Shown piece after piece: positions 7,091-55,987 of a DNA stretch of 64,000 bases. This stretch comes from Bryoerythrophyllum caledonicum. Taxonomy: Eukaryota > Streptophyta > Bryopsida > Pottiales > Pottiaceae. Made by a program: the position numbers and the translations under genes. The notes below the pieces were generated by a model, which worked only from the letters and a program-made list of their open reading frames with translations, ran no database searches and had not been told where the DNA came from. Positions within the stretch are counted from its first letter, which is position 1, and every line of letters starts with the position of its first letter. The stretch lies in contig OZ020515.1 in the NCBI GenBank assembly GCA_963971425.1, forward strand, positions 33,925,856 to 33,989,855, given 5' to 3'.

Positions 7091-7102
7091 TCACAGTTAT
7101 TG

Positions 7103-27170: not shown

Positions 27171-27183
27171 CCATTGCAGTAAA
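27171..27183 (+). repeat. Target-site duplication of the minus LINE (3' side)
   Basis: CCATTGCAGTAAA here is repeated exactly at 55975-55987, bracketing the minus-strand LINE. The LINE's (TTC)n tail, seen as GAAGAAGAAGAA on the plus strand, starts immediately after it. Confidence 0.93.
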
Positions 27184-27197
27184 GAAGAAGAAGAACT

Positions 27198-27219
27198 CCG
27201 GTCCCCATCGGGGGGCCGG
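27198..27219 (-). other. 3'-terminal hairpin of the minus LINE
   Basis: CCGG-T-CCCC and GGGG-GG-CCGG arms can pair just before the TTC tail, at the same place as the perfect hairpin of the plus LINE. The arms differ in sequence but keep complementarity, which suggests an RNA structure recognised by the reverse transcriptase. Confidence 0.6.
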
Positions 27220-27412
27220 CATGAGTGAAGTGTCCGTTCATTCCACCACTAAGTCCATGCCCACAGGGCATGGGTTAGTAGTATGGAACTACTTCCCCCT
27301 TTCGAGGGTGGACACTATGTACCCAGTATCAAGAAACCAATAACAAAGGGACCCTGGGAAAGTCCCAAAAAAGGGAGGGCAAGTATGGTGAAATGCGAAT
27401 GCAGGTGTAGAT

Positions 27413-29893
27413 CTATGGACGGGGGTTTGAAGTGTCAGGAAGGGGTTGGTTGTTTTCAATTTTATGTTTATGTAGGAGTATCGACATAGCATGTTGAATT
27501 GCAATAATGTTAATATTTGAAAAGGTGGTTTTGATTGAAGTGATGGGGATTTTAAATGTTTCTTCGAGGGTTGTCATTGAGGGAATGAAGGTGGTGGCTC
27601 TAGCACCCGCGGTGATGACAATGAAGGGGTCTACTGTCCATCCTAGTGCTTGGATATCGTCAAGTAGTGGTTGGTATTTATTTATTTCATTTGCAGTAGT
27701 GTCCGGAGAGAATCTGTCATTGCAATATGTGAATTCAATAAATTGGATGGTGAGATTGGGGTCTATGTGGTTTGGTTGGGGGTCTTTGTATGAAAGTCCT
27801 CTAACACATAGTAGGTCCGGTTTAAATCTTGCGTTACAATAGCATCTTTGGGTCTGACAAGTGCATGGTAGTAGCCAAAGAGGGACCGTATTTTCTTGTG
27901 GGTTGTCATTGAAGGTTCCGGCGTTCATGAGGATGAAACACCGGGATTTGGTTGATGATATAAGTAGTTTACGAATAGCCCATACAACTTTGTTATGTCT
28001 TTTGACAATAAGTGAGTGTATATGTGGGTTTTGGCACTTGAGTAGGACATGCAGCCATGTGTTTGGGTCCGTCGTGTTGCAATTTGGACATGTAATTGTA
28101 GGGAATCTTTCTATTCCAAAGAAGAGTTGTTTGCGGGCATTGCCCATATATTGTCCGGTGCGGAATTTGATTAGGCATGTGATTTGTGGATCCGTTATAA
28201 TGGGGTTTTTCCAAAAGTTGTTGGACAGTACGTTATGAATGTTTGGGTTGCCAGTCCATTTATCAATATTGGGGAAGTTTTCTGTAAGTTTTTCTAGGTT
28301 GTTTACAAGATCATGTTTCTTGAGGTATTTGTCCAAAAATCTTATGGGGCCTTTATCGGGAGTTTCACCCATAGAGGGCCATTCATATCTATGAAAGTAA
28401 TATGGGGTGGCATGGGCGTGTTCGTATGGGTGTATGGCATTCTTGTGGGTTTTTTCTCTTCCTTCCTTAGCTAGTTTGTCGGCTTGTTCATTGCCGTCGA
28501 TATTAGCATGAGCTCGGACTTTGTGGAGTGTAGTAGTCTGTGTACGATTTTGGAGCATTGCAACCATAGATGTAAGGATAGTTTTATCCGGGTGACTGTT
28601 GTGTAAGGTAGGATGTTTAATGTGTGTATTAAGGAGGTATAATACATTTATGCAATCTGTAAAAATATGAGCCGGTTTGTTTGGGTATTGAGTGGTGATT
28701 ATTTTGAGGGTTTTGTGTATAGCCATCATTTCGGCTCTTAGAATATTTTGGAGTCCATGTAGTCTTTTGCCTAATTTAATTTGTTTGGTTGAATTGTATA
28801 TCCCATAACCGGCTTTTTCTCGGTGCCAATGTCCCGGGCTTACTTCGGTCGGTTCTTTAAAGGAGCCATCACTGTAGTAGCTAAAGTTGGGGTCAAATTT
28901 AAGATCTGTATTAATTTGGTAGTAGGGGAGGGGGAGGTTCAATTCGGTAATTGGTAATGTGGAGATGTTTGTGTGGGGGGTTTTAGACCATTTTTTGTTG
29001 CGGTTTACACGGGTTGAAATAGGTGTGGGGGAGGCTATTGCGGTGTATACCTTGTTGATATTTAGATTTTTTGCTATCAAAGTGAGATGAGTGAGGTTTT
29101 CTAGAGTACCTATTTCTCGAGTTTGGTGATGTATGCATATGATACGTAGGGTTGCTGGTTCAAGGCGGGGTGTTTGTATTTGCGGTGGTATGGTGGGTTC
29201 TTTATAGGTCATAGAGTCGGCTTCAAATAGTACTTTGTTGTGGGAGTCCGGGAATGGGCCTAAATGTGGGTTAGAGTTGTGGTACCAACGAGTGTCGGGA
29301 GTGATAATAATGGTGATGTCGTGGTTGGGGTCATTATTTGCCGCTAGGCGTGCCCAATGTGTTGCTTGTTGTGTTTCTTCTTCGTTGTGAGGGTGTGCAA
29401 GGCCTATTCCGTTCCATTTATAATCAAAAGCTTTTCCAAGAGAACCAAAAATCTTATCGCGTTCGAATGGAGAGTAGAATTTTGAGATTTTTGTGGAGCA
29501 TGTAACGGGGGATGAGAAGTATGAGTGTGTGATATTCAGAGATGTAATAAAGTAGTCTAAGATAGGCTCAGGTAATGTGTAGTGTGCATTTTTAAGGGGG
29601 TCATTTTTGGGTATTCGGTAGTTATATCTTTGGTATAGCCAAACAATTTCGGTTTCAAATGTTTGGGGTATTGGTTCGATGTTAATGGGGGTTTGTAGTG
29701 CATTGTGATATTGGTTCCACAACCATTGTAGTCTAGCGAGTGGTATGGTTATTAGATGTCTACCATTATTTTCGTATGTGGGCATTATCTTGTTGTATGT
29801 TGATTGTATTTGTTTGTGCGAGGATGTCCATTTCGGGGTTACATTCGGTTGTAAAGATGTTAAGGAGGGGGATAATAATAGGTGGCGTGACAA
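27413..29893 (-). pseudogene. Minus LINE ORF2 part: RNase H, CCHC knuckle and PD-(D/E)xK-like domain
   Basis: This 826-codon frame is the 3' third of ORF2. RNase H catalytic residues are visible: YSDGSF (D), LRAEMMAIH (E), IFTDCINVLYLL (D) and DGNEQADKLAKEG (D), with HKVRAHANI before the last. Next comes a knuckle, CPNCNTTDPNTWLHVLLKC, that is C-x2-C-x9-H-x4-C, followed by KRHNKVVW. The C-terminal domain has FKPDLLCVRG, then FIEFTYCNDRFS and INKYQPLLDDIQALGW, the spacing of PD...E...K of restriction-like endonucleases in R2- and Dualen-type LINEs. A conserved GARATTFIPSM closes it. The frame is intact here but separated from the RT by frameshifts around 29.9-30.4 kb. Confidence 0.85.
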
Positions 29894-30395
29894 ATCTACT
29901 GTCTCGAGGTTGTGCTTGAGGGTGGTGTAATTGTATGATCTTTAGGTAGTAATTGTTTTGAGTTCTAAGGTAGTATTGTGTGAGGATTTCGGTGTTATGT
30001 AGGGAAGTATTTGGGTTGTGCCAAGGGAAAAGATTTTTTTGTGGTAGCCATTTGGCGTAGGTGGTGTTATTGTAGACCAGTGGCATAAGTATGACGTATA
30101 TTGTTTGCCTATGTTGTTAGAGTCAATGTGTTTTCTATGTTTGTGCGTGGTTATATTGTTTATTGGGTGCATGGAAGGATTTTTTATATATGTGTTGGAG
30201 GGACATTTGATCGTGAGTGTGGTGGGTTTAGAGGGATTGATGGGGGGTTGATGTTGGGGTGGGTGTCATTGTGATTGATGATGTATGGATCTTTAAGTGT
30301 GTATGGTGGGGCGTGAGTGGTGCAAGGGTTCGGGCATATAGGGAGGCATGGAGGATGACAGAATAATTGTTTAGCAATATTTAGTGCACTTTTTA

Positions 30396-32192
30396 TTAAT
30401 TTGTGAGGGGTACCATAAATTTTATGTAGTTCTTGTCGTCCATAAGGTGTGTTCCATTTGGTAGTGTAATTTGTTTTAGATCGGTAATGTTTGCAGAGAA
30501 AAGTTTTTGTAGGAGTTTGGCAGATAATTGTCGGTCAAGTCTAGGGAGGTTATGTATTTCATTTGCCCAATTTTGTTCAAGCGGGGCGGGGTCTAGAAGG
30601 AAATCTTCTAGTGTGCTTTTTGGGAATATTTGAGCTTCTGTTTTGAGTAGAAAAAGTGTGCAGGTAATGGGAGACCGGAGACAATCAGATTTTTTAAGTC
30701 TTTGGAGGTATTGTGCTCCTCCATAAATGGCAAGGATGTGCCGAAGGAGTCCACTGTAAATTAGTCCTAGTCTTCCCTTGTCGTAAAGTGCATTCTGGAG
30801 TTGTTCTCCAATGCAACGTAGATAGGCATTTTTGAGGGAAAAGGCTTCTAATCCGAATAGTTCGTGGGGGAGTTGTGTTATGACATTGGGCGTACAATTA
30901 GGGAGTCCACATACTTTCTTTTGTATGGCTATGATTTTTTTATCAAGTTTGTTTATGGCGGGCATGGAATAAGGGACCGCATAGAAACTATATGAGATAC
31001 CCGGTCGTATAACGGTATCAATCATTTTTATTTTTTGTTGCAATGTGGCCGGACATAATGTAAGATCCTTGCATTGTTTAATAAGTTTTGTAGTAGTCGT
31101 GTGAATTTGAATTTTCCATTTTAGCGATGGGATTAGGTTTATTCCAAGGTATATGTAGGGTTGATTTTGGTTGAGAACCGGGATTGGTTGGTTGTGATAG
31201 TGGATATTGGTAGCTTGGATAAGGGCTTTGAAGGCGGTTGGATTTATTTTGGATTTGTTTGGGCATCTAGTTACGGCACATTTTTGGACCCCGAGTTCCA
31301 TCCCAGTCCATAAACAGAATTTGTCTATTTTGTTTAATTGAATTTGGAGTGATTTAAGATGTCCGGAGATGGCCGCTAGATCGTCGGCATATGCGGCCGA
31401 GTTTATGGTGACTTTTGAGGTGCCAAATGTGTAGCCATTGTTACCCCTTTGGAGCCATCTCAATAGAGGTTCTAGAAAGATAATAAAGAGGTATGGGCTC
31501 AATGTATCGCCTTGGATGGTACCGCGTTGGATGGGGATAGGGCGTGTGGTACCAAAGAATTCTCCAGTGTATGTAGTGGTAGATTGGGAGTATATACTGC
31601 CAACTAGTGTGACTACGTCTACCGGGTATCCAAGATCGCTCATAATGGTTAGTAATCGGGGATGGTCAATGGAGCCAAATGCGTTTTTGAAGTCAATGTA
31701 GAGTATGTAGATGTCTTTGTTTGTGAGTTTTGCATCTTCTAGGGCGGCAATGAGCATTTGAAGTTTTCGTGTGGTACTTCTCTCGGCTCTAAACCCTTCT
31801 TGGCTTTCGTGTAATATTTGGTGTTTTTCTCTGTAGGCCGATAGTATTGATGTTAGTGTGCTAGTGAATAGCTTGTAAATGGTGTTAGCTAAGGCGATAG
31901 GTCGGTGGTTAGGTAGCTCGGATGGGTTGCCTTTTTTGTATAGTAGGATTGTTAAACTTGTTTTCCAAGATGCGGGGATGGATTTTTGTTTGTAACAATG
32001 AAGGAAGAATAATGATAGAAGGTCATGGAATCTGGGGGGCATGTTTTTTAGGATTGAGTTAGGTATATGGTCCGGGCCGGGGGCTTTGTTGGTTCCCAGA
32101 TGTTCAAGGCACATGTTGTATGTGTCTCTGTTATAATATGTATGGAGAGGTGTTGTTGGTTCGCCTCTTTTATCAATGGTAAATCCGTCCAA
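30396..32192 (-). pseudogene. Minus LINE ORF2 part: reverse transcriptase
   Basis: The 598-codon frame carries the LINE RT order: NKAPGPDHIPNSILKNMP (fingers), WKTSLTILLYKKGNPSELP, NHRPIALANTIYKLFTS, QEGFRAERSTTRKLQ, YILYIDFKNAFGSIDHPRL (motif A), RGTIQGDTLSPYLFIIFLEP (motif B), NSAAYADDLAAI (motif C, catalytic YADD), and the thumb region IRPGISYSFYAVPYSMPA. Residues match the plus-strand copy through the whole length with moderate divergence. Frames on either side are shifted, so ORF2 as a whole is broken. Confidence 0.92.
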
Positions 32193-32879
32193 ATCATGCC
32201 ACGGGTATTGCCTAACTCCGCACGTGCATGTTGGTGTATGTTGTGGTTGGAAGTGGCATGGAGGGGTGGATGGTTTATTGTTTATGGATTGTTGAAAATG
32301 TATTTCGTTTGCGATGTCATCTGGGCTGGTTAGAATGTTATTGTTATGATCTAAGATATAGTCTAGTGGCAGGTTTGTGTTATTTTTAAAGACTTTTCTG
32401 TTAATCTTTTTGGGTTGGTTTTGTGTAATTGGCGGTACTTAGATATGGCCTTTTTGACACATTCTCTTGCATATTTTGTGGTAATTTTTCTAGCATCTTT
32501 GTTGGCATCTTTTGCAGTGGTAGCAATGTCTTTTAGCCAGTCTTTGTGAGGGGTGTTGGGTGGTGGTACTTGTGGGATTTGGGGGTGACGGATGTTTTGT
32601 AGTTCGGAGAGTATTGGGTGGTTTCGCCAATTTTGGTTGGTTTTAGCAATGTAAATTGTTTTACGAATAGTGTGATATGTGACAAGATGTTGTTTCCATT
32701 TTTTGGCTAGTTTTCTTGGTAGATATCCCCCTTGTTTTGAGGTTCGGGGTGTGAGTTGTGGGATCGGGGGCGCTTTACAAGTTTTTTCTAGTATAGTAGA
32801 GATTTCTTTTATGAGTTTGTCAAGAGTCGTGCAAGCGTCTTGCCATTGTGTGTGTATGTGAGGTGTTGATGGTTAGAAA

Positions 32880-34100
32880 GGATATATGTAAGGGAGTCCA
32901 TTTGTGGAGAGTTTTTTTCGAAGAATATTGTATTAAAGTTGTCAAGGTTTTCTTTTGGGATGGGGTTTAGTATTTTAATATCATTTGAGTTGATGGTTGT
33001 GGGAGGCCTATTTATAAGAGTATTGTGGGGTATGTTGAGATGGATTGGGAAGTGGTCCGAGTTTAAGTTGGTAGTGGTGTTGGTGATTGATGTGTAACTA
33101 GTATGGTTAGGTGTTCTGATATAAAATCCATCAATTAGGCTAGTGTGTGTGTGTAATTTAGTCCACCTTGTCGAGAGTATTGTGTGTCGGTTGGGATTAG
33201 GTATAATTCTAGGTCATCCGTATAGTTATGCCATTGATAGTCTATGTCAAGTGGGGGGGTAAAAACCGCTCCATTTTGTCGTCCGATAAGGGCGATGTCT
33301 CGGTTAAAGTCACCGCAAAGTATAATTGTATGGTTAAGGTGTGTATTTATTTGTGAAGTAATGGAGTTTTGGATCTCTGGAATAAGCCTAGAGTCTTCTA
33401 TATGTGAGGGCATGTATAGATGAAGAATGATCCATGGTTGAAGGGGACGGTTAGCAATTTCAATAATTTGGAGATAAGGTGATATATTAACCGGGGTGGG
33501 GATTTTAGTAATATTCCCGGGGAAGGCATATGATTGGTGTATGAGCATGAGTAGACCACCTCTTGCCGGAGTATATGGCCTCCGTTGTTGGATGCATCGT
33601 GTAAGAGAATGAGTGTTGTTAAATATGAGTTTATAATTGGGGAATGTTTTTTGGATATATTTTGTGGATTTAGTAGCGGTTAATTTAGTTTCTTGTATGG
33701 CAATTATGGCGGGTGGTGTGTTGGTGTGAGCGGTTAGATTATGGATGCAAGGTAAAGCAGTGTTTAACGTTGAGGCGTTCCATGTAATTATATGTGTGTT
33801 CCTATTGTCTATATTGTCATTGTTATGAGGTGGAGGAGGAGTGTAGGCGGGTGTCTGAGTAGGGTGCGTGTAATCATGAATTGGCTCAAAGCATCTAAGA
33901 GCTTCGAGGATGAGATTGTGTGGGAAGTAGGGAAATTTTAGTTGTAGTTCATCAGGGGAGGGGGGTGGGATTTGGCTATGAATAAATTTATATAGGTCAT
34001 TGTGTAGAGAGGTTTTGTGTTCTAAAAGGTGTTGGTCTTCCTCTAAGAATTTAGTGTATGGGTGGAGTGTTTCTATGTGTCTTTCAGGGGGATTATATAG
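32880..34100 (-). pseudogene. Minus LINE ORF2 part: apurinic endonuclease domain
   Basis: This is the APE-type endonuclease that nicks target DNA in LINE target-primed reverse transcription. Visible are HIITWNASTLN (catalytic Asn), AIQETKLTATKS (catalytic Glu), LCGDFNRDIAL (GDFN) and, after a frameshift near 33140, SLIDGFYI and NSDHFPIHL (SDH, about 33060-33049). The frame reaches the junction with the plus LINE at 34101-34113 and continues into 49220 on the other side of the insert. Between 32192 and about 32880 the linker is heavily frameshifted. Confidence 0.88.
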
Positions 34101-34113
34101 AGAGGATAGGGTG
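34101..34113 (+). repeat. Target-site duplication of the plus LINE (5' side)
   Basis: AGAGGATAGGGTG here is repeated exactly at 49208-49220. The plus LINE fills the interval exactly, and removing it with one copy restores the minus LINE's reading frame. Confidence 0.96.
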
Positions 34114-36431
34114 GATTTGAGATGAAGACTGAGTGAGCTCCGAAATCTCTGGTGAGGGGAGGTGGGACTTAGCCTCAGGGAAAGAGTGTGGGCACCAAGA
34201 GGTGGCTGATCTTGGTGAGAGCTCCCCATACATTCTAGATCTGAGAAAGGAGAGAGGTCTGGGACACAGATCACGTTGGAAAGGGCTCACAAGCATCAGA
34301 TCTGGAGTTTGAGGAGTGAACGCAAGGGTGTTAGATCTATGGTGTGCGTCTTCTGAGAAGCCTGGGAGCAAGTGTTGGCACATAGATGTAATCTAGCCTC
34401 GTGCCACAAGATCTGCCCCAGATCTGTAAGCTGGATACCAAATCTGTAGGCCTCTCTCTTAGTCGATGCACCTCCCCAACCCAGTCTTTTACCTTTACAA
34501 TATAGCAAGACAAACCCAACGCAACTATATTACAGCAACAACTCTTCATAGCGCACGACCCACAACATTGACATCCTGGAGCTCAAGCAATCGAACGCAC
34601 AACCCTGGAGCACGCCACAAGCAACAGCAACAAGCGCATACACCACACATTCCAGCAACAAGAAGCGCATGCACCTCTGTAAGTTTATGGAGCATTCATT
34701 CCTCCCCTTTCTCTGATTAATGCATGCACATCTGTAGATCACACACCATTAGCCAACACTTGATGTCTCGCAATCTCTCTTCTTGATTCAACCTCGTAAA
34801 GTTACATAGATCACCAGTAGTGATAAGTAATAGCCAAACCAGAGAACACAACCTAACCCTAGATCACATAAAACCTTGCACACACATAGAGATTTCCACA
34901 TCTACAATAGAGTGCGGAAGCGCTGTGCATTTTTCTCTAGAATCTTGCAGGCACAGAAAGGGCGTTGCAAACGCACAAATCCACGCATCACACTTGAACC
35001 AGCACCACCCAGCCAGCGACAGAGTGAGGAGCAGCCTTGATACTCCTGGTTGAACCCTACAACCTGTGACAACATAAAACTTTAGCATTGCAACAGGTAG
35101 AAACCCAAATCAGCATCACCCAGCCAGCGACAGAGTGAGGAGCAGCCCTGGTACTCCCGGTTGAACCCTACAACCTGTAACAACATAAAACTTTAGCATT
35201 GCAACAGGTAGAAGCCTAGTAGAGCAACGACACAGGTGGAAACAAGCAGACTAGGAGTACACAACGCATTCAAGGATTTACACAACATCAAACAAAAGGA
35301 AAGACCTGGACAGAAACAGCAGACACTTCGACTCACATCAGGAATCCAAGGACGCCGGACTTGCAAAACAGGAGCAGGGTTAGATACCAGCCAGGAATCT
35401 GCAACTCAATTCAAGCAGAGGCAACATCATCCCAGACAGAGAATCAAGGATACAAGACAGGAGGAGACCAGCAACTGCTTGAAACAAACCGACCTAGTAC
35501 TCGCAGACAACCCGACGTCTACGTCAACGATAACAAACGTCAACCCCGTCCTCACTGAATCCTAAACGACGACACCAAATCCAACGAAGACCTAAAACTT
35601 GACGTCGACATCAAACCCACACACCTGGCGTCAACACGCCCGACGTCAACACCGAAATCCAACACCAACATCGACTTAGTTCTTGACTGTGAAACCTCAA
35701 CAGCAGATCAAGCAACAACGACCCAACCCAACGTCAATTTCGACAGCATCAAATCTCAGGATTGCCCAACATCGTCCTAGAGCCCGAAGGCATCGATCTA
35801 GACCTCGAAGACAACCGCGTCACAGACCCTGAAGACACCATCCCAGATCCCGAAGACATCGTCCCAGACCAGACGACTCGACCCAAACAAGCCCAAACCC
35901 ACGTCAACTTCGACGTCTAAACCTGCGCCCTCGTCAACATCAACAGTCCGAAGACACAAGCAACCTACTCCAGCGCACTCAGCGATCGCAAGATATAGAA
36001 CAGAGATCCTCCCAGAACACAAGCAACCTACCCCAGCGCCCTGTTATGAGTGACTCCCTGAAGGCACATCGACCCATCTAAAGGCGGCGACCCACGCACT
36101 CAGGCTGAGACCCAAGCACGCAAGCTGCGACCTCAAGCCTTTACAGCAACCTACCTGCATCTACAGCGACCCACCCCAACCTACCTTCACAACGGCCACC
36201 TAACCTGCGACCTACGCACTCAGGCTGCGACCCACCCAAGCGGACTTGTGACCCACGCAATTAGACTGCGACCTACACAACCTCCTATTCGCCCCCCTTC
36301 AATAACCCAGCGACCCACCGCCTCAACACCAACCTTCCTACATATCCAGGGACCTACCTCACCAACTATTGCCCTACCCCAGCCCCTGAACCCTTAGCCT
36401 AGTGACTTCAGTTTCACACCCTCCACCAGCT
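34114..36431 (+). promoter_or_regulatory. 5' UTR / internal promoter region of the plus LINE
   Basis: The 2.3 kb leader has no credible ORF. Its first 320 bp contain five AGATCT words (34237, 34298, 34333, 34409, 34420), a feature shared with the 5' end of the minus LINE. A 111-bp direct repeat occupies 35002-35112 and 35113-35216. The region from about 35480 to 36400 is C/A-rich and T-poor with many CGACC and ACCCA words, like the rest of the element's coding strand. LINEs carry their promoter in the 5' UTR, so these repeats are candidate promoter modules, as with mouse L1 monomers. Confidence 0.6.
35002..35216 (+). repeat. 111-bp tandem duplication in plus LINE 5' UTR
   Basis: Two head-to-tail units start GCACCACCCAGCCAGCGACA (35002) and GCATCACCCAGCCAGCGACA (35113). 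Both continue through GAGTGAGGAGCAGCC, GTTGAACCCTACAACCTG and CTTTAGCATTGCAACAGG. Only a few substitutions separate them, indicating a recent duplication. Confidence 0.9.
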
Positions 36432-38072: not shown

Positions 38073-38239
38073 CCAAGGACTACGGCCGAAGATATCACCA
38101 ATGTGGCAACACATGGGTGGACAAGGTTTTTACCTCCCTCCCCCACTCTTTTAGTATACTTTTCCAAATCTCCTTGTGCACTCACCTACTCCTCGAAATC
38201 ACTATCTCCTCTTGTATACTCTCCCCCTTTCACTACAAA

Positions 38240-45200: not shown

Positions 45201-48200
45201 CCATACATATACCTAGGGACAAATCTTGTTCCCTCACTAAAATGGATAATCCAAATCCACACTACAACCACAAAGCTCATCAAACAATGCAAAGAACTAA
45301 CAACATGCCCAGCCACCATGAAACAAAAAATAAAAATGGTTGATACCGTACTACGCCCAGGTGTGGCATACAGTTTCTACGGTGTACCATACTCTATGCC
45401 AGCTATCAAAAAACTTGATAAAAAAATAATAGCCATACAAAAAACCATATGTGGATTACCAAAATGTATGTCAAACGCAATAACCCAACTACCACATAAC
45501 CTATTCGGACTTGAAGCTTTCTCCCTCAAAAACGCATACCTCCGATGTATAGGCGAACAACTGCAAAATGCCCTAAACGATAAAGGAAGACTTGGGAAAA
45601 TATATAATGGATTAACTCACTATGTCCTTGCCCAATATGGTGGCGCTGAAAACATACCGAGAATTAAAAAAAGTGACTGCATAAGATCACCAATAACACG
45701 AACATTATTCTTATTAAAATATATAGCTAAAGCCCACCTTAAAAGTACGCTCCCGAACTTCCTCACTAATCCTACAACAATAGAAATACTATGGCACCAA
45801 GAAACATTAAATCATAACACACTCAGTGCCCAACTCTCCCAAAAGCTTCTACAAAAACTCCTCTCAAAAAATATTTTTGAACTAAACAAAATTACCTTAC
45901 CTAACGGTACACACATCATGAACAATGAGGACTTCAAAACCTACCACTTCACCCCATCTAAACTAATAAAGAGTGCCCTAAGTGTTGCTAAACAACTATT
46001 TTGCCACATAACATGCCCCACTATATGTCATACTCCTTGCAACATACACCCATACTCTCATACACTTAAAGATCCATTCATCACCCTCAACAATAACATC
46101 ATCCCAAGAAATATTCCCACACCAACCAATCCCCCTAACCCTCCACATACATACCACCCCCACCCCCCAACATACATCCCCAAAAACCCTACCAAATACC
46201 CCATTAATAATATCATAAACCATAAACATATCCAACACACAGACACAAATAACATACAAAATACCTACACAAAATATCTATGCCAATGGCAACACAATGA
46301 TAATACATACAATAAATGGCTCCCCCAAAGAGACCTTTTTCCACGGCATGACACTAATACCTCCACACATAACACTGAAAAACTAAAACAATACTACCAA
46401 AAGATCCAAAACAAAAAATACTCAGATATCATCCTTGCCCACCATCCACAAGAACAATCCTTAGACTCAAGGTCCGTAACGCCACCCATAATTATCCCAC
46501 TCTTAAACATCTACACAACAGAATGCAACCCCGAAAATGATATCCTTACATCCTCAAACACAATTCAAATAAATAACAATCAAGCACATCTATACGAAGA
46601 AAACGGCCGACATTTACACACCATACCCATTACCCGGCTCCAATGGTTATGGAACCAATATCATACAAAATTACAATCCCCTACAAACATTGAACCAACA
46701 ACCCAATCCTTTGAAACCGAACTAATATGGCTTTACCAAAGATATAAATATCGAATACCAAAAACTGACCCTCTCAAAAATGCGCAATACACAATACCCA
46801 CCCCCATTTTAGACTCACTGATATCATCCTTTAACATTGAACACTCATACTTTTCCTCCCCGATCACATGTCCTACCAAACTAAATAAATTCTACTCACC
46901 GTACGAAAGAGACAAAATATTTGGATCCCTAGGCAAGGCCTTTGAACACAAATGGATCGGAAATGGAATAGCTCACCCCCACAACGAGGAAGACATAGAA
47001 CAAGCCATACATTGGGCTAGACTTGCCGCCAAACACGATCCAAATAACACAAAAACAATCATCGTCACACCGAACAACAATTGGTACCAAAACAACAACC
47101 AATATTCAAACCCATTCCAAGATTCCCACATCATTGCATTATTCGAAGCACACACAATACCATACGAAGAACCTAATATCCCACCCGAGCTAAAAAAACC
47201 CCGAATAGAGCCATCTACATTACAAATACTATGCGTCCATCATCAAAATCAAAACCTGGGCTCCCTAGAACAACTTGCGGAACTTACCTCCATAACAGAC
47301 AATCTAGACATACAACGACCATACACAAAACCGGCCCCACCAACACCCATACAAACCCCCGTAAACAAAAGTAAAAAATGGTCAAAATTAAACTATGACA
47401 ACAACACATTAAACTACTCTGTCATACCTCCCCCTCTCCCAGACTACCCAACTCAGACCACACCAAAATTTAACCCCGCACACAGTTATTACACTGACGG
47501 CTCCTTTAAACCACCGGAACAAATTAGCGCGGGCTCTTGGCGAAGAGAAAAAGCTGGCTATGGCATATATAATTCTACCAAAGAAATTAAACTAGCCAAA
47601 AGACTCCATGGACTACAAAATATCCTCAGAGCAGAACTCATGGCCATTCACAAAACACTACAAATCATCACAACAAAATACAAAAATGAACCTGCACATA
47701 TATTCACCGATTGTATAAATGCACTCTACCTACTAAACACTCAAATAACACACCCAATCCTTCACAACAGTCACCCCGACCAAACCATACTAACATCAAT
47801 GGTACAAATGTTACAAAAACGTACACAAATCACAACCCTTCACAAAGTCAGAGCCCATGCCAACATTGATGGCAACGAACAAGCAGACAAACTTGCAAAA
47901 GAAGGCCGAGAAAAAACACACAAAAACGCCAAAGACCCTCACGAACATGCTCATGCCACCCCATACAACTTTCAAAAAGAAGATTGGCCTTCCAAAGAAG
48001 ATACCCCCGACAAAGGCCCAATTAGATTTCTGGGCAAATATCTCAAAAAACAAGACCTCTACAACAACCTGGACACAATCTCAGAAAGTATTCCTAACAT
48101 AGAAAAATGGACTAACGATAACGACATAGACAATGAACTCTCTACAAACTTTTGGAAAAACCCCATCATCTCAGACTCACAAATAACGTGCCTCATCAAA

Positions 48201-48950
48201 TTCCGTACGGGTCAGTACATGGGAAACGCTCGAAAACAACTCTTCTTTGGAATAGAAAGATTCCCATCCATAACATGCCCCATATGCCCCTCAACAGACC
48301 CCGACACATGGCTACATGTGCTACTCAAATGCCAAAACCACCACATACACTCTCTAATTGTTAAAAGACATAACAAAGCGGTATGGGAAGTCCGAAAACT
48401 AATCACCTTCTACAATAAATCGAGATGTTTCATACTTATGAACGCCGGCACTTTTAATAGCAATCCACAAGAAAACACGGTCCCCCCATGGCTACTTCCA
48501 TGCTCATGTATGACCCAAAGATGTCATTGCAACGCTAGGCTCAAACCGGACATTCTTTGTGTCAAAGGTTTACCATACCACGACCCACCACCCGAGAACA
48601 TCAACCAAGACTACACCATTCAATTCATCGAATTTACATATTGCAACGATAGATTCTCCCCGGAAACAATACAAAACAAAATAGATAAATACCAACCCCT
48701 CATAGACGACATCATTGCCCTCGGCTGGAATGTGGACCCCCTTATTGTTATCACATCCGGCGCTCGTGCGACCACCTTTATCCCATCTATGAAAACTCTC
48801 GAAGATACCTTCAAGATACCCATTGATACAATTAAAACTACCTTTAAAAATATCAACACCATCGCTATTCAACATGCCATGTCTATTTTACTGCATAAAC
48901 GCAAAATCGAAAACAACCAAATCCTTCCTGATAGGCAAGACCCCCCTTAG
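42231..48950 (+). CDS. LINE ORF2 enzyme: APE endonuclease, reverse transcriptase, RNase H, knuckle, PD-(D/E)xK-like domain
   Basis: The frame is open for 2240 codons after the TGA at 42228; the first ATG inside is 42771, but that would cut off the APE N-terminus, so translation should enter from upstream. APE: IITWNASSLN (about 42570), EETKLTATKS, LCGDFNRD (about 43040), SLIDGFY, NSDHSPV (about 43305). RT: NKAPGPDRIPNSILKNMP (about 44270), YVDFKNAFGSIDHARL, RGTIQGDTLSPYLFIIFLEP, AAYADDLAT (44970-44981 for YADD). RNase H: YTDGSF (about 47490), LRAELMAIH, IFTDCINALYLL, GNEQADKLAKEG (about 47870). Knuckle: CPICPSTDPDTWLHVLLKC (about 48276). C-terminal nuclease-like: KPDILCVKG, FIEFTYCNDRFS, IDKYQPLIDDI (48544-48720). 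All catalytic positions are kept, so this enzyme part looks functional apart from the upstream frameshift and stop. Confidence 0.92.
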   Translation, partial: TNTLLQTLLTLQNPPERHIYTPHPYTEFLVDNQNIINHENSIHKRLYDFLHSQDIPPSNDIIKQKFPYLPNNLINESLKRLDPIPEYTHPPPPLPYIPPQNQNQNIRPNQENTYIITWNASSLNTALPSLQTLVANTDTPPALIVIEETKLTATKSTKYIQNIFQDYKLIFNNTHALTRCMQQRRPYTPGGGGLLTLIHKKYTFPGNINKIPTPMHISPYIQIIKITNHPLQSWLIFHMYMPSHPEDTRFLLDIQNTITTHINNHPNHTYLLCGDFNRDIALIGRQNGNHHTPPQNIDYQWRRFTENLNFTYINTDTQFSGQGGYNYSDWSLIDGFYINTNNNTQYTSTTNKDIILNSDHSPVQLHIPNNTLISRTPTIPNKDTIRILNPIPKTNIEKFNTKFFEENTVQIDSLINTLEINSQLTQAQWQEACHSLDKLINKISDTLEQTCRAHPIPQMINRTSQQGGYLPRKLSKTWKQHLTTYHTIRKTIRIVKNNPQWRNHPIHNELLTIQHIQIPTPPPPDLPHDTWIKDIAIIAKNANIQAWKIITKYTKENIKKAISKYRQLYEISPKKINKKVFKNLESPPMDCIKDQYNNILTSPEDIANEIFNQQTKTKRPTVPTCNYQPQHTIECTCAIRQYPWHDLDGYTLDKRGKPEIPLHKYLNRATYDTCLQNLGNNKAPGPDRIPNSILKNMPPRFHKLLFLFFSHCYKQKQIPNSWKTSATILLYKKGDPSMLPNHRPIALANTIYKLFTSTLTHILSSYGEKFKILHDSQEGFRAERSTARQIQTIIAALEDAKFTNQDIYILYVDFKNAFGSIDHARLLAIMSDLGYPKEATTLVGNIYSQSSTCYIGEHFGKTKPIPIQRGTIQGDTLSPYLFIIFLEPLLRWLERGSNGYTFGTSQVTINSAAYADDLATITNKIKSIQIQLHKIDRYCKWAGMDVGVPKCAVTGCPNKSKLNPTTFKALMQTSNINYRNQPIPILHQNEPYIYLGTNLVPSLKWIIQIHTTTTKLIKQCKELTTCPATMKQKIKMVDTVLRPGVAYSFYGVPYSMPAIKKLDKKIIAIQKTICGLPKCMSNAITQLPHNLFGLEAFSLKNAYLRCIGEQLQNALNDKGRLGKIYNGLTHYVLAQYGGAENIPRIKKSDCIRSPITRTLFLLKYIAKAHLKSTLPNFLTNPTTIEILWHQETLNHNTLSAQLSQKLLQKLLSKNIFELNKITLPNGTHIMNNEDFKTYHFTPSKLIKSALSVAKQLFCHITCPTICHTPCNIHPYSHTLKDPFITLNNNIIPRNIPTPTNPPNPPHTYHPHPPTYIPKNPTKYPINNIINHKHIQHTDTNNIQNTYTKYLCQWQHNDNTYNKWLPQRDLFPRHDTNTSTHNTEKLKQYYQKIQNKKYSDIILAHHPQEQSLDSRSVTPPIIIPLLNIYTTECNPENDILTSSNTIQINNNQAHLYEENGRHLHTIPITRLQWLWNQYHTKLQSPTNIEPTTQSFETELIWLYQRYKYRIPKTDPLKNAQYTIPTPILDSLISSFNIEHSYFSSPITCPTKLNKFYSPYERDKIFGSLGKAFEHKWIGNGIAHPHNEEDIEQAIHWARLAAKHDPNNTKTIIVTPNNNWYQNNNQYSNPFQDSHIIALFEAHTIPYEEPNIPPELKKPRIEPSTLQILCVHHQNQNLGSLEQLAELTSITDNLDIQRPYTKPAPPTPIQTPVNKSKKWSKLNYDNNTLNYSVIPPPLPDYPTQTTPKFNPAHSYYTDGSFKPPEQISAGSWRREKAGYGIYNSTKEIKLAKRLHGLQNILRAELMAIHKTLQIITTKYKNEPAHIFTDCINALYLLNTQITHPILHNSHPDQTILTSMVQMLQKRTQITTLHKVRAHANIDGNEQADKLAKEGREKTHKNAKDPHEHAHATPYNFQKEDWPSKEDTPDKGPIRFLGKYLKKQDLYNNLDTISESIPNIEKWTNDNDIDNELSTNFWKNPIISDSQITCLIKFRTGQYMGNARKQLFFGIERFPSITCPICPSTDPDTWLHVLLKCQNHHIHSLIVKRHNKAVWEVRKLITFYNKSRCFILMNAGTFNSNPQENTVPPWLLPCSCMTQRCHCNARLKPDILCVKGLPYHDPPPENINQDYTIQFIEFTYCNDRFSPETIQNKIDKYQPLIDDIIALGWNVDPLIVITSGARATTFIPSMKTLEDTFKIPIDTIKTTFKNINTIAIQHAMSILLHKRKIENNQILPDRQDPP

Positions 48951-49207
48951 GAACTTCGCCACTCTGTCTCTTCCTGATTGGCTGCCTGTTTGGTTTTATT
49001 TTTTGTTGTTTAGTTAGTTTGGTCGTGGTTGGTCGTTGTTGGTTGGTTTCTGGCTACTCGTTACATAGTGTCTACCCTCGAAAGGGGGAAGTAGTTCCAG
49101 TTCGCTAATTCCTTGTCCGGTGGGCATGGTCTTAGCAATGGAACGAACAGACACTTTATTCACGCCGGTTCCCTTCTGGGAACCGGCGTTCTTCTTCTTC
49201 TTCTTCT
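48951..49207 (+). other. 3' UTR, terminal hairpin and (TTC)n tail of the plus LINE
   Basis: After the ORF2 stop the 257-bp tail contains a block shared with the minus LINE and with the SINE (GAAAGGGGGAAGTAGTTC at 49080-49097). It also has a perfect hairpin at 49163-49188 (CGCCGGTTCCC, TTCT loop, GGGAACCGGCG), followed directly by TTCTTC repeats to 49207. The tail is a trinucleotide repeat, not poly(A). Confidence 0.88.
49163..49188 (+). other. Perfect 11-bp-stem hairpin at the LINE 3' end
   Basis: The arms CGCCGGTTCCC and GGGAACCGGCG flank a 4-nt loop, immediately upstream of the TTC tail. A compensated version exists in the minus LINE, so it is a likely recognition structure for the reverse transcriptase. 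A rho-independent terminator is not relevant in this eukaryotic setting. Confidence 0.8.
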
Positions 49208-49220
49208 AGAGGATAGGGTG
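49208..49220 (+). repeat. Target-site duplication of the plus LINE (3' side)
   Basis: This is the second copy of AGAGGATAGGGTG, identical to 34101-34113. It directly follows the TTC tail and belongs to the coding sequence of the minus LINE. Confidence 0.96.
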
Positions 49221-49647
49221 TTTAGTAATATATTTGTCCAATGAGTTGGGTTTGTATTGGTGGAATGTTGGTTGGTGATGTTGTTGCATTCGTCTATTGA
49301 CGGGTGTAGGGTGGTAATTATGGCAAATAAGATATGTGTGGATGGGTGGTTGTTGTTTTTTTTTTGAAGTATGTAGCGGGAGATGTTGGGATAAAGGGTG
49401 GAATAGGTTTGGTGAAGTATGTGATTATTTTTTAGAAGTGGCGCAAAGGAGGATGCTATGTGTTGGTACTCGGGGTGGAGTTTTATAGTATTTGGAATAA
49501 AATATATTTTTGATAGTCTTTTGTGTATTTTTGGATGGCTGCGGAAGATATTTGGCATTGGGCCAGGGTTAGTTTCTATATCTCCGCATAGTATAATTAG
49601 TAGTTTACTATGAGTAATGTTTGTGGCTATAAGTGGGAGGGGTGTGG

Positions 49648-49660
<13 letters not shown>
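49208..49660 (-). pseudogene. Minus LINE ORF2, N-terminal segment with 2A motif
   Basis: Read on the minus strand, a Gln/Asn run passes into SKLLIILCGDIETNPGP (2A motif at 49585-49559), then MPNIFRSHPKIHKRLSKIYF, IKLHPEYQHIASSFAPLL and HPSIDECNN, reaching the insertion point as ILLNTLSS. The same order occurs in the plus LINE after its intact 2A. Because the frame is uninterrupted here, this copy shows that the 2A module and the APE domain belong to one polyprotein. Confidence 0.85.
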
Positions 49661-49680
<20 letters not shown>

Positions 49681-49717
49681 CATTGTTGTTGTGGTTGTTG
49701 TGGTTGTTGTGGTTGTG

Positions 49718-51013
<1,296 letters not shown>

Positions 51014-51219
51014 GATTTTTCGTATTTTAATAGTATATGATTTTTTATGTATTATTTTATATTTTTTGTTTATATTTTTGTTACTTTTATTATGTTTTGT
51101 AGTATATAAATATACTATATTTTATATTTTATTTTTTTTGGTTTATTATTATAGGTTTTTTGGATTTTTATAGTATTTATTATAGTATATATATATACTG
51201 ATTTATTTATATTAGTTGC

Positions 51220-52533
51220 AGCGTTGTTTAACACTACTAGTTTGACATGTCCATCTTGCCTTCAATAGCGTGTTACTTCCATCCAAACTTTTTGGATGAG
51301 GGGTAAACATGACATATTTTCCATGGAGCTTCTTACTTTGCTTAACATGCTTTTTATAGACTGCCGCATTTAGGCACTCAATGTTACAAGTCCCTACATG
51401 GCGCCCATGCCTGGCTCAAGTTTGAAGAATATATCAACCACATTCTCCTCACCGAGAATAGACTTAATTCCATCCCCAAGTTCTTTCTCATTTTTTGTTT
51501 TATTAAGGTTTTTAGCAATGAGGATGAGACAGTTTTTTTTAGCAATTTCATCCTCATCCATTTTCCTAGTTGCAAATACCGGTAAGAAAATCTCATTGTA
51601 AAATGCGACTTTGTAGTCTTTGACCTTGGCTGCCTGCTCCGGTGAGGGAGTTTTGACCCATGCAAACTCGGAAAAGGTTTTCTTTTCTACCCCCGTTACT
51701 TCGAAGTCATGACCTCTTGCAAAACTCTCTTTAACAATTTCCGCATGTAAGTTATGTGGTTTTTTATTGACAAGATTCGGGCCAGATATTTTGACAGACA
51801 ATAGATGTGAGAAGGCAAGGGAATCGTATGATTTGCATACTTTCCCCTTGTGTGGAATACCTTCATTCAAGATAAGGACGAAGGGCCTTGTCCCATTCAA
51901 TAGTCCCCTCCCATCAACATTTGGATTTTTGAGGTGTAGCTTAAGGACCCCATTCCAATTGTCGGACTGGTGATAGCAAAAGATGGCTATAGGCTCACGG
52001 ATGCTAGTCCCAGTGGGAATATCCATATCTTTTAGTCTATTTTTTACCATATCTAGCACAATGTCTTTTGTCCATATTTGCTCCCCAAGTTCAAAATGGA
52101 TTGAGACTTGGTAATCCAATGCATAACCATTATTATCTACCTCAACTTCATTTGGAAGTTGTGTGAGATTGAAATGGTTGCCCTCTTTTCCATCCATTCT
52201 TTTGGATGGCCATTCGTTCTGGGGAACGAAAGGGTAGGCAGGCATGGCTTCAAAGCTTTCGCTCGCTTCTTTTTTATTTAGACCAAAACTGACCAATTCC
52301 TCAATGCTGGCAATTGGAATTTTGTAACTCCCATTTTCCTTTGCAATTGTATTCATTGTGTTGAATCCAAGCCAGTATTCAGTGTAAGGCAAACTTGTTG
52401 CTTTCACTTTGTTCTGGTTGGTGTTTGTGACGACTAAGGGGTACTGGCTGTCACTTACTGGGCAAGGGTTTTCTTCTACCACATCAACAAACAAGCGCTT
52501 GGAAGAGGTAGCGACATCTTGGTATAGAGACAT
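51220..52533 (-). pseudogene. Minus LINE ORF1 protein homologue (frameshifted)
   Basis: The likely ATG is 52533-52531 (MSLYQDVATSSKR), right after an acceptor-like CTTGCTGCAG. The conserved blocks match the plus ORF1: EYWLGFNTMNTIA, SFEAMPAYPFVP, HFNLTQLP, YALDYQVSIHFELG, GTSIREPIAIFC, GVLKLHLKNPNVDG, LLNGTRPFVLIL, GKVCKSYDSLA, and IFFKLEPG before a frameshift near 51405. After it, in the next frame, HGRHVGTCNIECLN and FTPHPKSLDGSN follow, matching MHNGSVNVQF and SPHRRSLEGDD of the plus copy. The coiled-coil end is lost or diverged. The long frame upstream of 52533 lacks similarity and is probably leader. Confidence 0.78.
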
Positions 52534-54664
52534 ACTGCAGCAAGCAAGATAGAAAGTGTCAATTGAGGTGGTGAAGCATATTGTCAAAAACATGCCCCTT
52601 ATCCTCTTGTTCTTAACTTCTCCCTCCATCATATGTTGAGGGCTTTTTGAAGTTAAGTTTAACAAGAAGGGGTGGAAAGTGATAACATTGGTGAGGTATA
52701 AACAATTGACTAACCTATTACCTAGGGATTGTGAGTGAGACATATTGACCCTTACACATACATACATACGGGAGGTGCCAAGATATTGGTCACCTCCCCA
52801 AGTAACTCGTTTAAATTTTAAGAGTAGCTTACATAACCATGGGGTTGCACAATAACCCAGCTGATGGCAGAGATCCAAATCCTGTAAAGAAAGTGTGAGA
52901 AGGTATTGACCTGAAAGTATGGTCATACCTTGCGTGTTATCGTGCGAGCTGCGGTTACATTTTGTCGATTGGGGCTGTACTGCTGGTTGTGGGTGAACAG
53001 CCTCCGGTCCTTGGGCTTGGCGCTTGCCCTCAGGTTTAGGAGCCTCTTGCTGTGTGTCAGCTGTTCTTGGCGCTGGTTCCTTGGGGCCCTGGTGCTGATG
53101 CCGGAAGATGCTGTAGCGGCCGGTACTTCTTGTTTTAGGTTTTGGGTGCCGGTTCCTTGGAGCCTCTACGCTGCTGGCACCTGGTTCTGCGTTCGCCGAG
53201 TGGTGGCGATTGATGGCCGTTGGGTGTAATCTTGAACGAGAGAAAGGGCTCGCAGACTTCGTTAGCTCCTCCGGCCTGTTGGCGCCGGCGATGGTGGTCA
53301 GAGGCTCCGCCTGCTTCTTCGGGTTGTGGACTCGGTGGACCTTCAGGCAATGGGCAGTCTGTGAGGGCAGTTGGATGCGGCACTAGGTGTGGAGCTTGGT
53401 GCGGGGCAAGGTTCGCGCGAACTTGCGTTCGTCCTCCCTGCTCCGAGTTGTTGACTGTTCCTTGTCTGAACACCGTCTGTGTCGCCGAGTTCTTGCCTCC
53501 CGCTTGGCTCTTTGCTTGGGTTCGCGTTCTTGCCTCCCGCTTGACTCGTTGCTTGGGTTCTTGCCTTCCGCTGCTGCGTCTTGTATGTTTGGCTTCGTGT
53601 ATTGCAGGTTTTGAATCTGGGATTGCTCCCAGATCTTGGGTCGGGGCTTCCTGTGGATCTGTCGTGTGCGCCGGTGGTCGGTCTTGTTCGCTTCCTCCTG
53701 TGTGTCTTCCACTTTCACGTGCACTGCTTGTGTTGCGACTTCTAACTTGGGCCGTCTCTTCGTTGTCCCTTGCAGGTATCGGAATGTCTGTAATGGACAT
53801 GCCAACATGAAGTTAGTGAGATTTGATCCACAATCAAGCCAAACAGAAAAAAACAAGTTTAAGAAGGAGGGAGCGTGTTGTTCTTCACTGGCGGGGAGTG
53901 TCCCGGTTGGATGTGCTATTCGCAGCGCTCTCTTCCTCTGATGCTCCACGTCTTCTGGCAGGTACGATCTCCAGGCTGCTTGGATGTTGTGTTGTGTCCA
54001 CAGCGCAAAGAGAGGGTGTCTACACAATAGGGCAATGTAAGAGGGTTTGGGAGTGAGGTGAGGGCATACTATATACCTTGTTTTGTGCTGGTGTTTGATG
54101 GATGTTGTTGTGGACGATGAACGTTTTCGTAGTTGGTCTTTTGGTCGTTTAGGTTCTCCAGGGAGTCGTTGAGTTGCTGCTGGTTGGTTGAGATGACTCA
54201 TGTGGAAGTTTGGATCTTGCTTTTTTGTGGATTTGTCGTTTAGATGGTGGTGGCGGCTAGGGTTTCGTCTCTGTTGATGTGGTTGGCCTTGATTTCTTTT
54301 GTATTGCGTGTACTTGGTCATACCTAGCTTCTTGTAACTATTTATTAGTGGTCTTCTAGAATGGAAGGAAGCAAATGGAATGGTGGAGTTACGTACCTTA
54401 TTGCGTGCGTACCTGTTGCTCAATTGGTGACTTGAGGTTTTTTTGATGTCATGTTGTTGATGTGTTTTGTGTCGGGGGTGGTGATGTTGCTGTAGTGGTT
54501 GTTTTGTTGAGCCTTGCAAGGAGTCGGATCTGGGGGCTTGTGTTTCCTGTAGTGTTTGTTGCAGAGGGTTCCTGCTTTGCTTTGTTGACTTCATAGTTGG
54601 CTTCGGTGTTCTTCTTCTCGCTGTTTCTTGGCTCGTTGTTGTGCAGCTGCTGAGACTGTGGCTA

Positions 54665-55139
54665 CTATTGGTGAAAAAGGGAGGAGCACACGTATTAGTT
54701 AGGTAGGGATTGCTGATACTTACCTTGTTCGGTGAAGCTGGTTTTGTGAAGGTTCGTGTTTCCTGTGTTGCTTGCTGCGGAGGGTTCTTGTGTTGTTTTG
54801 TTGACTTTTCTGTTGACTTCGGGGTTCTTGCTCTTTCTTGGCTCCTTGATGAGTAGCTCCTGAGACTGTGGCTGCTACTGGTGGAAAAAGGGAGAGCACA
54901 AGTGTTAGTTAGGCGGGGATTAGTGATACTTACCTTGTCCGGCGATGTTGGTTCTGTGGGGGCTTGCGTTACTTGTACTGTTTGTTGCGGAGGGCTCTGT
55001 TGCTTTGTTAGCTTTGCTGTTGACTTCGGTGTTCTTCTCGTTGTTGCATGACTCTTTGATGTCTGACTGTAGAGGCGGTAACTGCTGGTGGGAAAGGAGA
55101 AAGCACACTCATAGCTAGGTAAGGTTTGTTGTTACTTAC
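54665..55139 (-). repeat. Three tandem exon-intron-like cassettes, period about 206-210 bp
   Basis: On the minus strand, three donors read AAG|GTAAGT with intron starts at 55139, 54933 and 54723, and three polypyrimidine acceptors read CACCAG or CCAATAG with intron ends at 55085, 54878 and 54665. This gives introns of 55, 56 and 59 nt and exons of 151 and 154 nt between them. Exon parts share CCGAAGTCAACA, CAACAAA and CCCTCCGCA words. A fourth exon-like copy after 54664 lacks the donor. Confidence 0.7.
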
Positions 55140-55640
55140 CTTGTTTGGTGAGATTGGGAATATGTCGTAGGGTTCAACATGTTGCATCTTCGGCGGTGGT
55201 TGTATCTATCTCGTTGTCCTGATGTTGATGTGTGATTGTTGCAGGTGCTTCGGGATTTGTTGGTGATGTCCAGGCGGTTAGCTGTGAGAGGCGGCGCTCT
55301 TCTTGAGATCTTTTGTATTTTGTCGCTGGACTATTGTTGCGGTTGGTCTTGTGTGATTTCCTGGTACAGAGGATAGACATGTGTCTGATATTGACTTTGG
55401 CGACTAGAACAATCCTATCATTGCATGCTTTGTACAAACAATACTGTGGTATATTAAAGAGCAGAATACACAAGGCAGGCTTAGCTGATTTTGAAGAGTG
55501 ATTTGCTCCATGCTTGTGTCTTGTAACTTGGCGTTGATCTTGTGCGCAATGTAGGTAGTAGTCATTCTTCATGTAATATGATTGTATCCTGATTGAGGAG
55601 GTGGTGGGTGTGGTGTTTCTATCTAGTGGTATGATAACGT

Positions 55641-55786
55641 AGATCTAGATCTGTTTGTGTAAGAGTTGTCGTGAGTGATGCAAGATCTAGTGCTAGATCT
55701 GGGCCAACACAGAGCCCCGCTTCAGATCTACTCCCCCATACTAGTGCTAGATTTTTGCAACCCCAACAACATATGACAAAAGATCT
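55641..55786 (-). repeat. AGATCT cluster at the 5' end of the minus LINE
   Basis: Six AGATCT palindromes occur at 55641, 55647, 55683, 55695, 55724 and 55781. The plus LINE has five at its own 5' end, in otherwise poorly conserved sequence. Confidence 0.85.
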
Positions 55787-55974
55787 AGAGCTTGTAATCC
55801 CTTCCAACATACTCCACATCATAAAAACACCTTTCAGCAACAATCAAGGTACACAGAGGGATTCGCAATGAGGCCCAACAACTCTCATTGCCTTGTGTGT
55901 CTAGTTTGCGCCTAACACCTACACCCCTCCTCACCAGGTTATGCGGAGCTACTCCTGCCTCATCTCTCTCCCCC

Positions 55975-55987
55975 CCATTGCAGTAAA
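55975..55987 (+). repeat. Target-site duplication of the minus LINE (5' side)
   Basis: CCATTGCAGTAAA is identical to 27171-27183. Sequence after 55987 is the pre-insertion locus and continues what precedes 27171. Confidence 0.93.

Follow-up and report, generated by a model that had tools for sequence, protein, structure and literature searches.

Nested giant LINEs of probable Dualen/RandI type in a moss genome

How did one giant long interspersed nuclear element (LINE) come to lie inside another in a moss genome, and what kind of element are they? The question is raised by a 64,000-nucleotide stretch of Bryoerythrophyllum caledonicum contig OZ020515.1 (hereafter the window), in which a plus-strand element, P, interrupts the second open reading frame (ORF2) of a minus-strand element, M. 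We find that P jumped into M, and that the two are very probably full-length copies, belonging to two families, of a non-long-terminal-repeat (non-LTR) retrotransposon of the Dualen/RandI clade in a moss-like plant. The nest is delimited as follows:

27171..27183, unstranded: M target-site duplication, copy 1, CCATTGCAGTAAA (exact 13-mer search)
27184..55974, minus strand: element M, in two parts around P and one duplication (34114-49220), whose removal leaves 13,684 bp
34101..34113, unstranded: P target-site duplication, copy 1, AGAGGATAGGGTG (exact 13-mer search)
34114..49207, plus strand: element P, 15,094 bp, of which about the first 5 bases (34114-34118) are 5' filler
49208..49220, unstranded: P target-site duplication, copy 2 (exact 13-mer search)
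55975..55987, unstranded: M target-site duplication, copy 2 (exact 13-mer search)

A LINE inserted into a LINE

Each of the two 13-mers is present in two exact copies with no further occurrence in the window, and 100 shuffles of the window produced no such pair. A (TTC)n tail ends both elements and abuts each 3' duplication directly, placing the 13-mers at the element borders, where a preliminary description of this locus had put them; the lengths it gave, 15.1 and about 13.7 kb, correspond to the 15,094 and 13,684 bp measured here. P is antisense within M, and removing it together with one duplication rejoins the M frame at ILLNTLSS-LYNPPERH, again as first described, to give a single frame through ILLNTLSSLYNPPERH. 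We then searched the same genome (437 Mb, 894 contigs) for the empty site, as that description had proposed. A 360-bp joined, P-free query yielded 557 candidates, and at all of the best 40, the places that were scored, the match is uninterrupted. Identity ranges from 89 to 98%, with 35 matches spanning positions 1-360 and five spanning 353-359 bases. Because the P-free junction is intact in paralogues, misassembly of the P/M junction is not needed as an explanation, as judged from the assembled sequence. Together, these data support the insertion of one full-length LINE into another, each with an exact target duplication.

The first ~50 bp of P and M are homologous, as had been suspected: their local alignment score of 33 exceeds every one of 300 shuffles (mean 19.8, standard deviation 2.3, maximum 28) and the control-window maximum of 23. 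The other 39 main genome matches to the P 5' end begin at base 3-9, mostly 6-9, and those to the M 5' end at base 2-21, so junction filler probably accounts for the first ~5 bases of P and ~8 of M. Both elements had been called complete, and structurally this stands; in coding capacity it does not, as both window copies carry coding lesions and neither is intact. The two lesions of P are absent from its siblings c14a and c2a, which carry others, and M has lesions of its own.

The earlier view that P and M are one family gave way on comparison. Their blastn similarity is 70.3% over 7,386 columns and, apart from one 134-bp stretch, is confined to the 3' half. Over 2,195 codons, the proportions of nonsynonymous and synonymous differences (pN and pS) are 0.22 and 0.71, the latter near saturation, with a ratio of nonsynonymous to synonymous divergence (dN/dS) of 0.126. 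This ratio is lowest (0.05-0.07) in the PCIF1-like domain (0.056), RNase H and the restriction-like endonuclease (RLE; 0.069); the 370-640 stretch and parts of the apurinic/apyrimidinic-type endonuclease (APE) and chromo-like stretches were misframed, so their ratios are upper bounds. Near-saturated synonymous sites with a low dN/dS indicate that the two lineages have long been separate while their enzymes were kept, and at the level of sequence P and M are two old families of one clade rather than one family.

Domain content and clade placement

The coding and noncoding parts of the two elements, with P on the plus and M on the minus strand, are as follows (RT, reverse transcriptase; UTR, untranslated region):

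34119..36431, plus: P 5' UTR, 2.3 kb, with a 111-bp tandem repeat at 35000-35213
36432..38072, plus: P ORF1, 546 residues; weak coiled-coil-type match at its C end
38240..41911, plus: P low-complexity region before 2A, rich in T, N, K and I, open for about 1,224 codons
41402..41425, plus: degenerate 2A copy, DMETNPRP, preceding the canonical 2A by 510 bp
41912..41935, plus: canonical 2A motif DIETNPGP, read in P
42231..48950, plus: enzymatic part of P ORF2, an open frame of 2,239 codons whose first methionine (residue 181) lies past the APE start
42576..43319, plus: P APE-type endonuclease domain (PF03372, 1.8e-4; PF14529, 1.6e-4; both below cut-off)
44433..45218, plus: P RT (PF00078, 1.6e-26)
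46188..46415, plus: P chromodomain-like segment, weak (PF00385, 0.0027, below cut-off)
46674..47105, plus: P PCIF1-like, methyltransferase-derived domain (PF12237, 4.4e-11), signature site HPHN
47484..47909, plus: P RNase H (PF00075, 4.1e-12)
48276..48332, plus: P CCHC zinc finger, before the RLE (homologue alignment and profile)
48543..48770, plus: P RLE core, KPD...E...K (homologue alignment and profile)
49061..49188, plus: P structured, conserved 3' UTR with terminal hairpin (folding and P/M comparison)
49189..49207, plus: P (TTC)n 3' tail, at the P end
27184..27330, minus: M 3' UTR with the same fold as P and a (TTC)n tail (folding and P/M comparison)
27413..29941, minus: M ORF2 piece with PCIF1-like domain, RNase H, CCHC and RLE (ORFs, Pfam)
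30396..32438, minus: M ORF2 piece with RT (ORFs, Pfam)
33135..34113, minus: M ORF2 piece with APE; leaving out P joins it to the 2A piece without a break
49559..49582, minus: M 2A motif DIETNPGP, read in M
49649..51014, minus: M (CAA)n array of 1,366 bp within the low-complexity region; codes for asparagine in the 2A frame
51397..52305, minus: M ORF1 remnant (translated match to P ORF1)
54615..55036, minus: M 5' UTR 210-bp tandem repeat

ORF2 is thus arranged as APE, RT, chromo-like segment, PCIF1-like domain, RNase H, CCHC and RLE, with the low-complexity region and 2A ahead. RT, RNase H and PCIF1_WW exceed the Pfam cut-off in P, PF12237 scoring 43.1 bits in P and 37.7 in M against a cut-off of 31.1. 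APE lies N-terminal of RT in both elements, and inspection by eye showed the motifs expected of it. In the homologue alignment, the CCHC finger and PD...E residues of the C-terminal block are invariant, and a 12-row profile of this block matches R2 proteins at 4e-10.

An RT homologue search found 313 proteins, 120 of which were listed; homologue counts below refer to these. Those with an organism name are chlorophyte (Parachlorella, Pleodorina, Haematococcus), and these algal proteins, found by homology, served as our Dualen-type references in place of Repbase consensus sequences. We built a 29-row RT tree using 24 of these 120 homologues. It pairs P with M (100/100) and places them in a clade of 26 rows (99/99), to which rows of all three algae belong and which stands apart from two R2 rows and from human L1, the sole L1 row, whose branch is long and whose place is unsure. 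With iterated profiles, the set of APE, RT, PCIF1-like domain, RNase H and C-terminal block was found in 64 of the 120, and the last four of these in 89. Much of the domain content is common to metagenomic and algal homologues. Collectively, APE before RT, a C-terminal CCHC and RLE, RNase H and the RT grouping are the features of Dualen/RandI, and the preliminary comparison with plant L1 did not hold: the RT groups with chlorophyte Dualen-type proteins, and an R2-like second endonuclease follows RNase H. That description also passed over the 2A motifs, the PCIF1-like and chromo-like segments and the coding lesions of both copies.

Several observations weigh against this assignment or against parts of it. 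The APE of P has only sub-threshold Pfam matches, and that of M passes by 0.1 bit (24.6 versus 24.5). The RLE stretch found no R2 as a single sequence, and by single sequence the similarity to a solved PCIF1 chain is marginal (0.084). Pfam detected no protease domain in P or in the M pieces, whereas the first Dualen was reportedly described with a cysteine-protease domain, said to be variable and not clade-defining. For the chromo-like segment, whose PF00385 match is weak and under the curated cut-off, sub-threshold Chromo matches (0.0043, 0.0015) lie at the corresponding place in 2 of 7 algal-type homologue fragments, but the fragment of the closest homologue has no Chromo match, a profile of the stretch found only one homologue (the closest) among the 120, and in a profile comparison with algal-type rows the alignment took in just the portion that follows it. 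We therefore call the segment chromo-like only, a weak similarity read from sequence.

Some homologues carry further Pfam domains: PF00628 in 11 of 120, PF02099 in 8, PF02338 and PF02902 in one each, and PF00145 in some (presumably PHD finger, Josephin, OTU, Ulp1-type and DNA-methylase domains, respectively). The clade thus seems to collect accessory domains.

In P, a second frame with its first ATG ~170 bases past the ORF1 stop runs through the ~1,224 low-complexity codons to 2A. This spacer holds 2 stops in the 2A frame versus 99 and 113 in the other two, and the best frame of 300 shuffles always had at least 68. A frame break and a stop separate 2A from the enzymatic part in the window copy, where ORF2 has no ATG upstream of APE. 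The motif of the P family, GDIETNPGP, is in the same frame as ORF2 in c2a and c14a: c2a has one 2,391-codon frame from before 2A through APE and RT, c14a is open from the 2A region through APE, and M is open from 2A into APE. Given these open frames, the native product is probably a polyprotein with an internal 2A. The canonical motif, D(V/I)ExNPGP, was read in 6 of 10 rows scanned (P and five others) and also in M; among the listed homologues, nine have a 2A ahead of RT, and in the eight of these nine with a detected APE it precedes that domain as well. On the plus strand the M array at 49649-51014 reads as nearly pure (TTG)n over 1,366 bp. From match coordinates, the nearest sibling of M is ~1.07 kb shorter between the 5' end and the P site, so the array probably varies in length between copies.

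ORF1 of P has no domain above the curated Pfam cut-off, and 15 members gave scattered weak matches only. It has 25 protein matches, the sole organism-named one being the Ceratodon protein KC19_VG146200, a label that we read as a V-chromosome locus. A Ceratodon purpureus "hypothetical protein" (P0264) holds the N-terminal part of a P-type ORF1; annotated moss gene sets therefore include pieces of these elements.

At the other end, the last ~147 bases of P and M are 86% identical, and the last 137 fold with z-scores of -5.4 and -4.4. All 43 pairs of the consensus fold are kept in both, four with double changes, and pairing falls to at most 49% when partners are slid. As the fold comes from two sequences and its covariation was reached by 36 of 500 letter shuffles, we regard the covariation as supportive, not proof, of a shared structure. 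The 5' ends of P and M fold no better than shuffles (z -0.29 and -0.79), and an Rfam scan of 34000-56100 gave two chance-level matches only, both far below gathering. The (TTC)n tail fills the whole fetched stretch in 2 of 39 3' flanks.

Three other readings of this architecture deserve weight. P and M could be giant members of the plant L1 clade that gained extra domains; an ORF1 with APE, RT and RNase H also occurs in plant L1 according to the available portion of PMC9033089, and the P RT matches human L1 ORF2p at 3.2e-22. The same RT matches R2 better (1.2e-31) and sits with the Dualen-type rows at 99/99, apart from human L1 (a long branch of unsure place, in a tree with no plant L1 row); the R2-like CCHC and RLE block is present and conserved, and the tail is (TTC)n rather than poly(A). 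We consider this origin very improbable. The spacer could be an untranslated A/C-rich internal leader for ORF2, its open frame and 2A mere relics, as its composition (47% A, 10% G), its varying length between copies and the frame breaks inside it in c14a and c2a might suggest; against the stop counts of its three frames, the retention of canonical 2A and the missing ATG before APE, this seems quite unlikely, if less so than an L1 origin. A stronger candidate, though still an unlikely one, is that the PCIF1-like domain has N6-adenine methyltransferase activity and caps or marks element RNA. It is among the most constrained parts between P and M (dN/dS 0.056) and is found in 98 of the 120 homologues, but both elements have HPHN in place of the NPPF-type tetrapeptide that we take to be the methyltransferase signature, and the first site is N in 40 and H in 26 of 100 aligned rows. 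Two families of the Dualen/RandI clade, with a 2A-bearing polyprotein and a methyltransferase-derived domain, thus remain our preferred reading.

How do P and M compare with known systems? Like the Dualen/RandI elements of chlorophyte algae, they combine APE and RLE in one protein with RT and RNase H, agree in RT phylogeny and carry a 2A motif, which Haematococcus proteins also have. Unlike them, they have a land-plant host, the HPHN signature and no protease domain found by Pfam; the sole organism-named match of P ORF1 is from a moss, and the low-complexity region of P before 2A is very long. R2 elements are not known to have an APE; they carry a single RLE and insert at one ribosomal DNA (rDNA) site. 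P and M share the CCHC and RLE block with them but have an APE, and 37 target flanks of young copies show no invariant base in the first 12; membership of the R2 clade was rejected on the presence of APE and the lack of a single target site. The 2A-bearing non-LTR elements of the L1Tc and sea-urchin types are known as APE-only. P resembles these in placing a 2A oligopeptide in an APE-type LINE; unlike theirs, its 2A follows ~1,200 low-complexity residues and precedes a two-endonuclease protein. Plant L1 and RTE elements share the APE-type endonuclease, RT and often RNase H with P and M, but the available portion of PMC9033089 describes no RLE block in them and lists land-plant LINEs as L1 and RTE only. 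Dualen is reported from Chlamydomonas relatives and from cryptophytes in the accessible text of PMC8226300 and PMC12747079, respectively.

The dual-endonuclease class was thus already known, while the moss host, scale, domain content and self-nesting are new as far as our literature search reached. Among the matches listed from open-licence literature, we found no report of Dualen/RandI in land plants and none of PCIF1 combined with retrotransposons. Surveys of adenine methyltransferases are said, perhaps, to have noted PCIF1-like fusions to retroelements. A viral-contig scan for relatives confirmed none.

Recent copies and insertion into relatives

The P 5' kilobase has four other copies at 99% identity. 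A first look gave 3,823 candidates for the P 3' end versus 465 for the 5' end, numbers that are not copy counts. Identity is 98% or more throughout the best 40 of the 3,823, among them the window copy; that listing has two further rows, both partial second stretches (81 and 98%). This pattern points to a recent burst with frequent 5' truncation.

Nine copies were fetched in all. Two siblings, c14a (98.4%) and c2a (98.1%), extend over the full length; their duplications measure 13 and 12 bp, and filler of 15 bases lies at the 5' junction. Three more, c14b, c7 and c2b, measure 12-12.9 kb; they extend to both ends but lack most of the spacer. Copy c7 has an exact 11-bp duplication and c2b an imperfect one only, and no target duplication was found for c14b. 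Copy c10 stops at P 5838 and c6 at P 7200, while c4 and c12 are older and partial. Target duplications of 11-13 bp were present in 5 of 7 copies tested. P belongs to a young burst, and its close relatives are numerous and look recently active. Copy c6 (L012/L011) is interrupted at P 7200 by what appears to be the 3' end, in antisense, of another such element.

Is insertion into relatives more frequent than chance? That nesting is mere chance in an element-rich genome, without targeting, is a serious possibility, though not the one we favor. Of 60 stretches of 300 bp requested at preset positions, two did not exist, and 5 of the remaining 58 contain the Dualen/RandI-type clade (95% interval 3-19%), so some nesting is expected; in the 5' set alone, 9 of 40 junction flanks match the clade, which against these samples gives p=0.052. 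We pooled the 5' junction flanks with the 3' flanks of young copies, of which 39 were fetched and 37 kept, the tail filling the other two, counting two copies once and applying a common 130-bp criterion. On this footing, 18 of 75 insertions are nested versus 3 of 58 samples (p=0.0024). A strict count, which leaves out the window copy (found because it is nested) and two cases that are perhaps side-by-side 3' ends rather than true nesting (J_L038 and T_L145), gives 15 of 74 (p=0.01), and young 3' ends alone give 11 of 37 (p=0.0015). Set against the 300-bp rate, however, the strict count returns p=0.052, a second borderline value that weighs against preferential nesting. Part of the excess could come from selection against genic insertions.

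Finer patterns are less certain. Antisense insertions make up 8 of 9 nested cases in the 5' set (p=0.039), 13 of 18 in the pooled set (p=0.096) and 12 of 15 under strict counting (p=0.035), leaving an antisense bias unsettled. L036 and L039, seemingly one duplicated locus, were antisense-nested in an earlier count (9/39) and have no match at 300 or 130 bp. Five of 18 insertions lie near 2A (P 7000-8300; p=0.016, in a region chosen after seeing the data), and the c6 insertion at P 7200 also falls there. In this mapping J_L061 and J_WINDOW were placed by translated search, and the orientation so obtained contradicts the 130-bp flank count, which we trust. Site-specific insertion was rejected, as the 37 usable 3' flanks have no invariant base, G being first in 19. 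Insertion into its own copies is also known from Zepp of Coccomyxa, which in the accessible text of PMC8226300 clusters at centromeres and, unlike P and M, is an L1-clade element.

Surroundings, proposed mechanism and meaning

Elsewhere in the window, an exon of an OBERON-type PHD finger gene (PF07227, 9.5e-36) lies at 3-542 (plus strand), and the ORF of an A20/AN1 stress-associated protein at 14494-15081 (plus). The latter is 67% identical to a Ceratodon purpureus protein, the closest organism-named one, up to 80% to unnamed proteins and 52-58% to Sphagnum; by E-value, a Mucuna protein with 41% identity comes out ahead. Together with the ORF1 match, this places the host among mosses or their close kin. 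A pogo/Tc5-like DNA transposon remnant (HTH_Tnp_Tc5, 8e-5; DDE_1, 2.6e-15) occupies 18316-19302 (plus), and adjoining long ORFs at 21602-23680 (plus), the two longest without a Pfam match, are perhaps a retrotransposon gag-like region.

The 11-13-bp duplications, 3' tail, truncation and filler lead us to infer target-primed reverse transcription. During translation, the ribosome would release the low-complexity region from the enzyme at 2A. RT may then recognize the 3' fold, prime on nicked target DNA and slip along the TTC tail. One endonuclease would nick the first strand, probably APE because the targets are not one site, and RLE or host enzymes would cut the second strand 11-13 bp away. 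The chromo-like segment could steer complexes to chromatin rich in older copies, with nesting as the outcome, and the PCIF1-like domain, because its methyltransferase signature is altered, may serve as a binding domain.

A broader scenario can be offered only tentatively, and we hold it to be somewhat doubtful: that a dual-endonuclease LINE lineage entered or persisted in mosses, where it is now a major, recently mobile component of the genome (5 of the 58 samples), and that through its 2A-released low-complexity protein, chromo-like reader and methyltransferase-derived domain it homes to the chromatin of its own older copies, possibly with a hot spot near 2A, self-nesting being a survival strategy.

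The available portion of PMC4640811 proposes that the replacement of RLE by APE in LINE evolution took place at the Dualen stage. An abundant and recently active lineage in land plants would make the role of each endonuclease in target-primed reverse transcription testable in genetically amenable plants. The range of land-plant LINEs would grow beyond L1 and RTE, 2A motifs in LINEs would gain a further setting, and there would be an example of a reader-like segment occurring alongside self-nesting.

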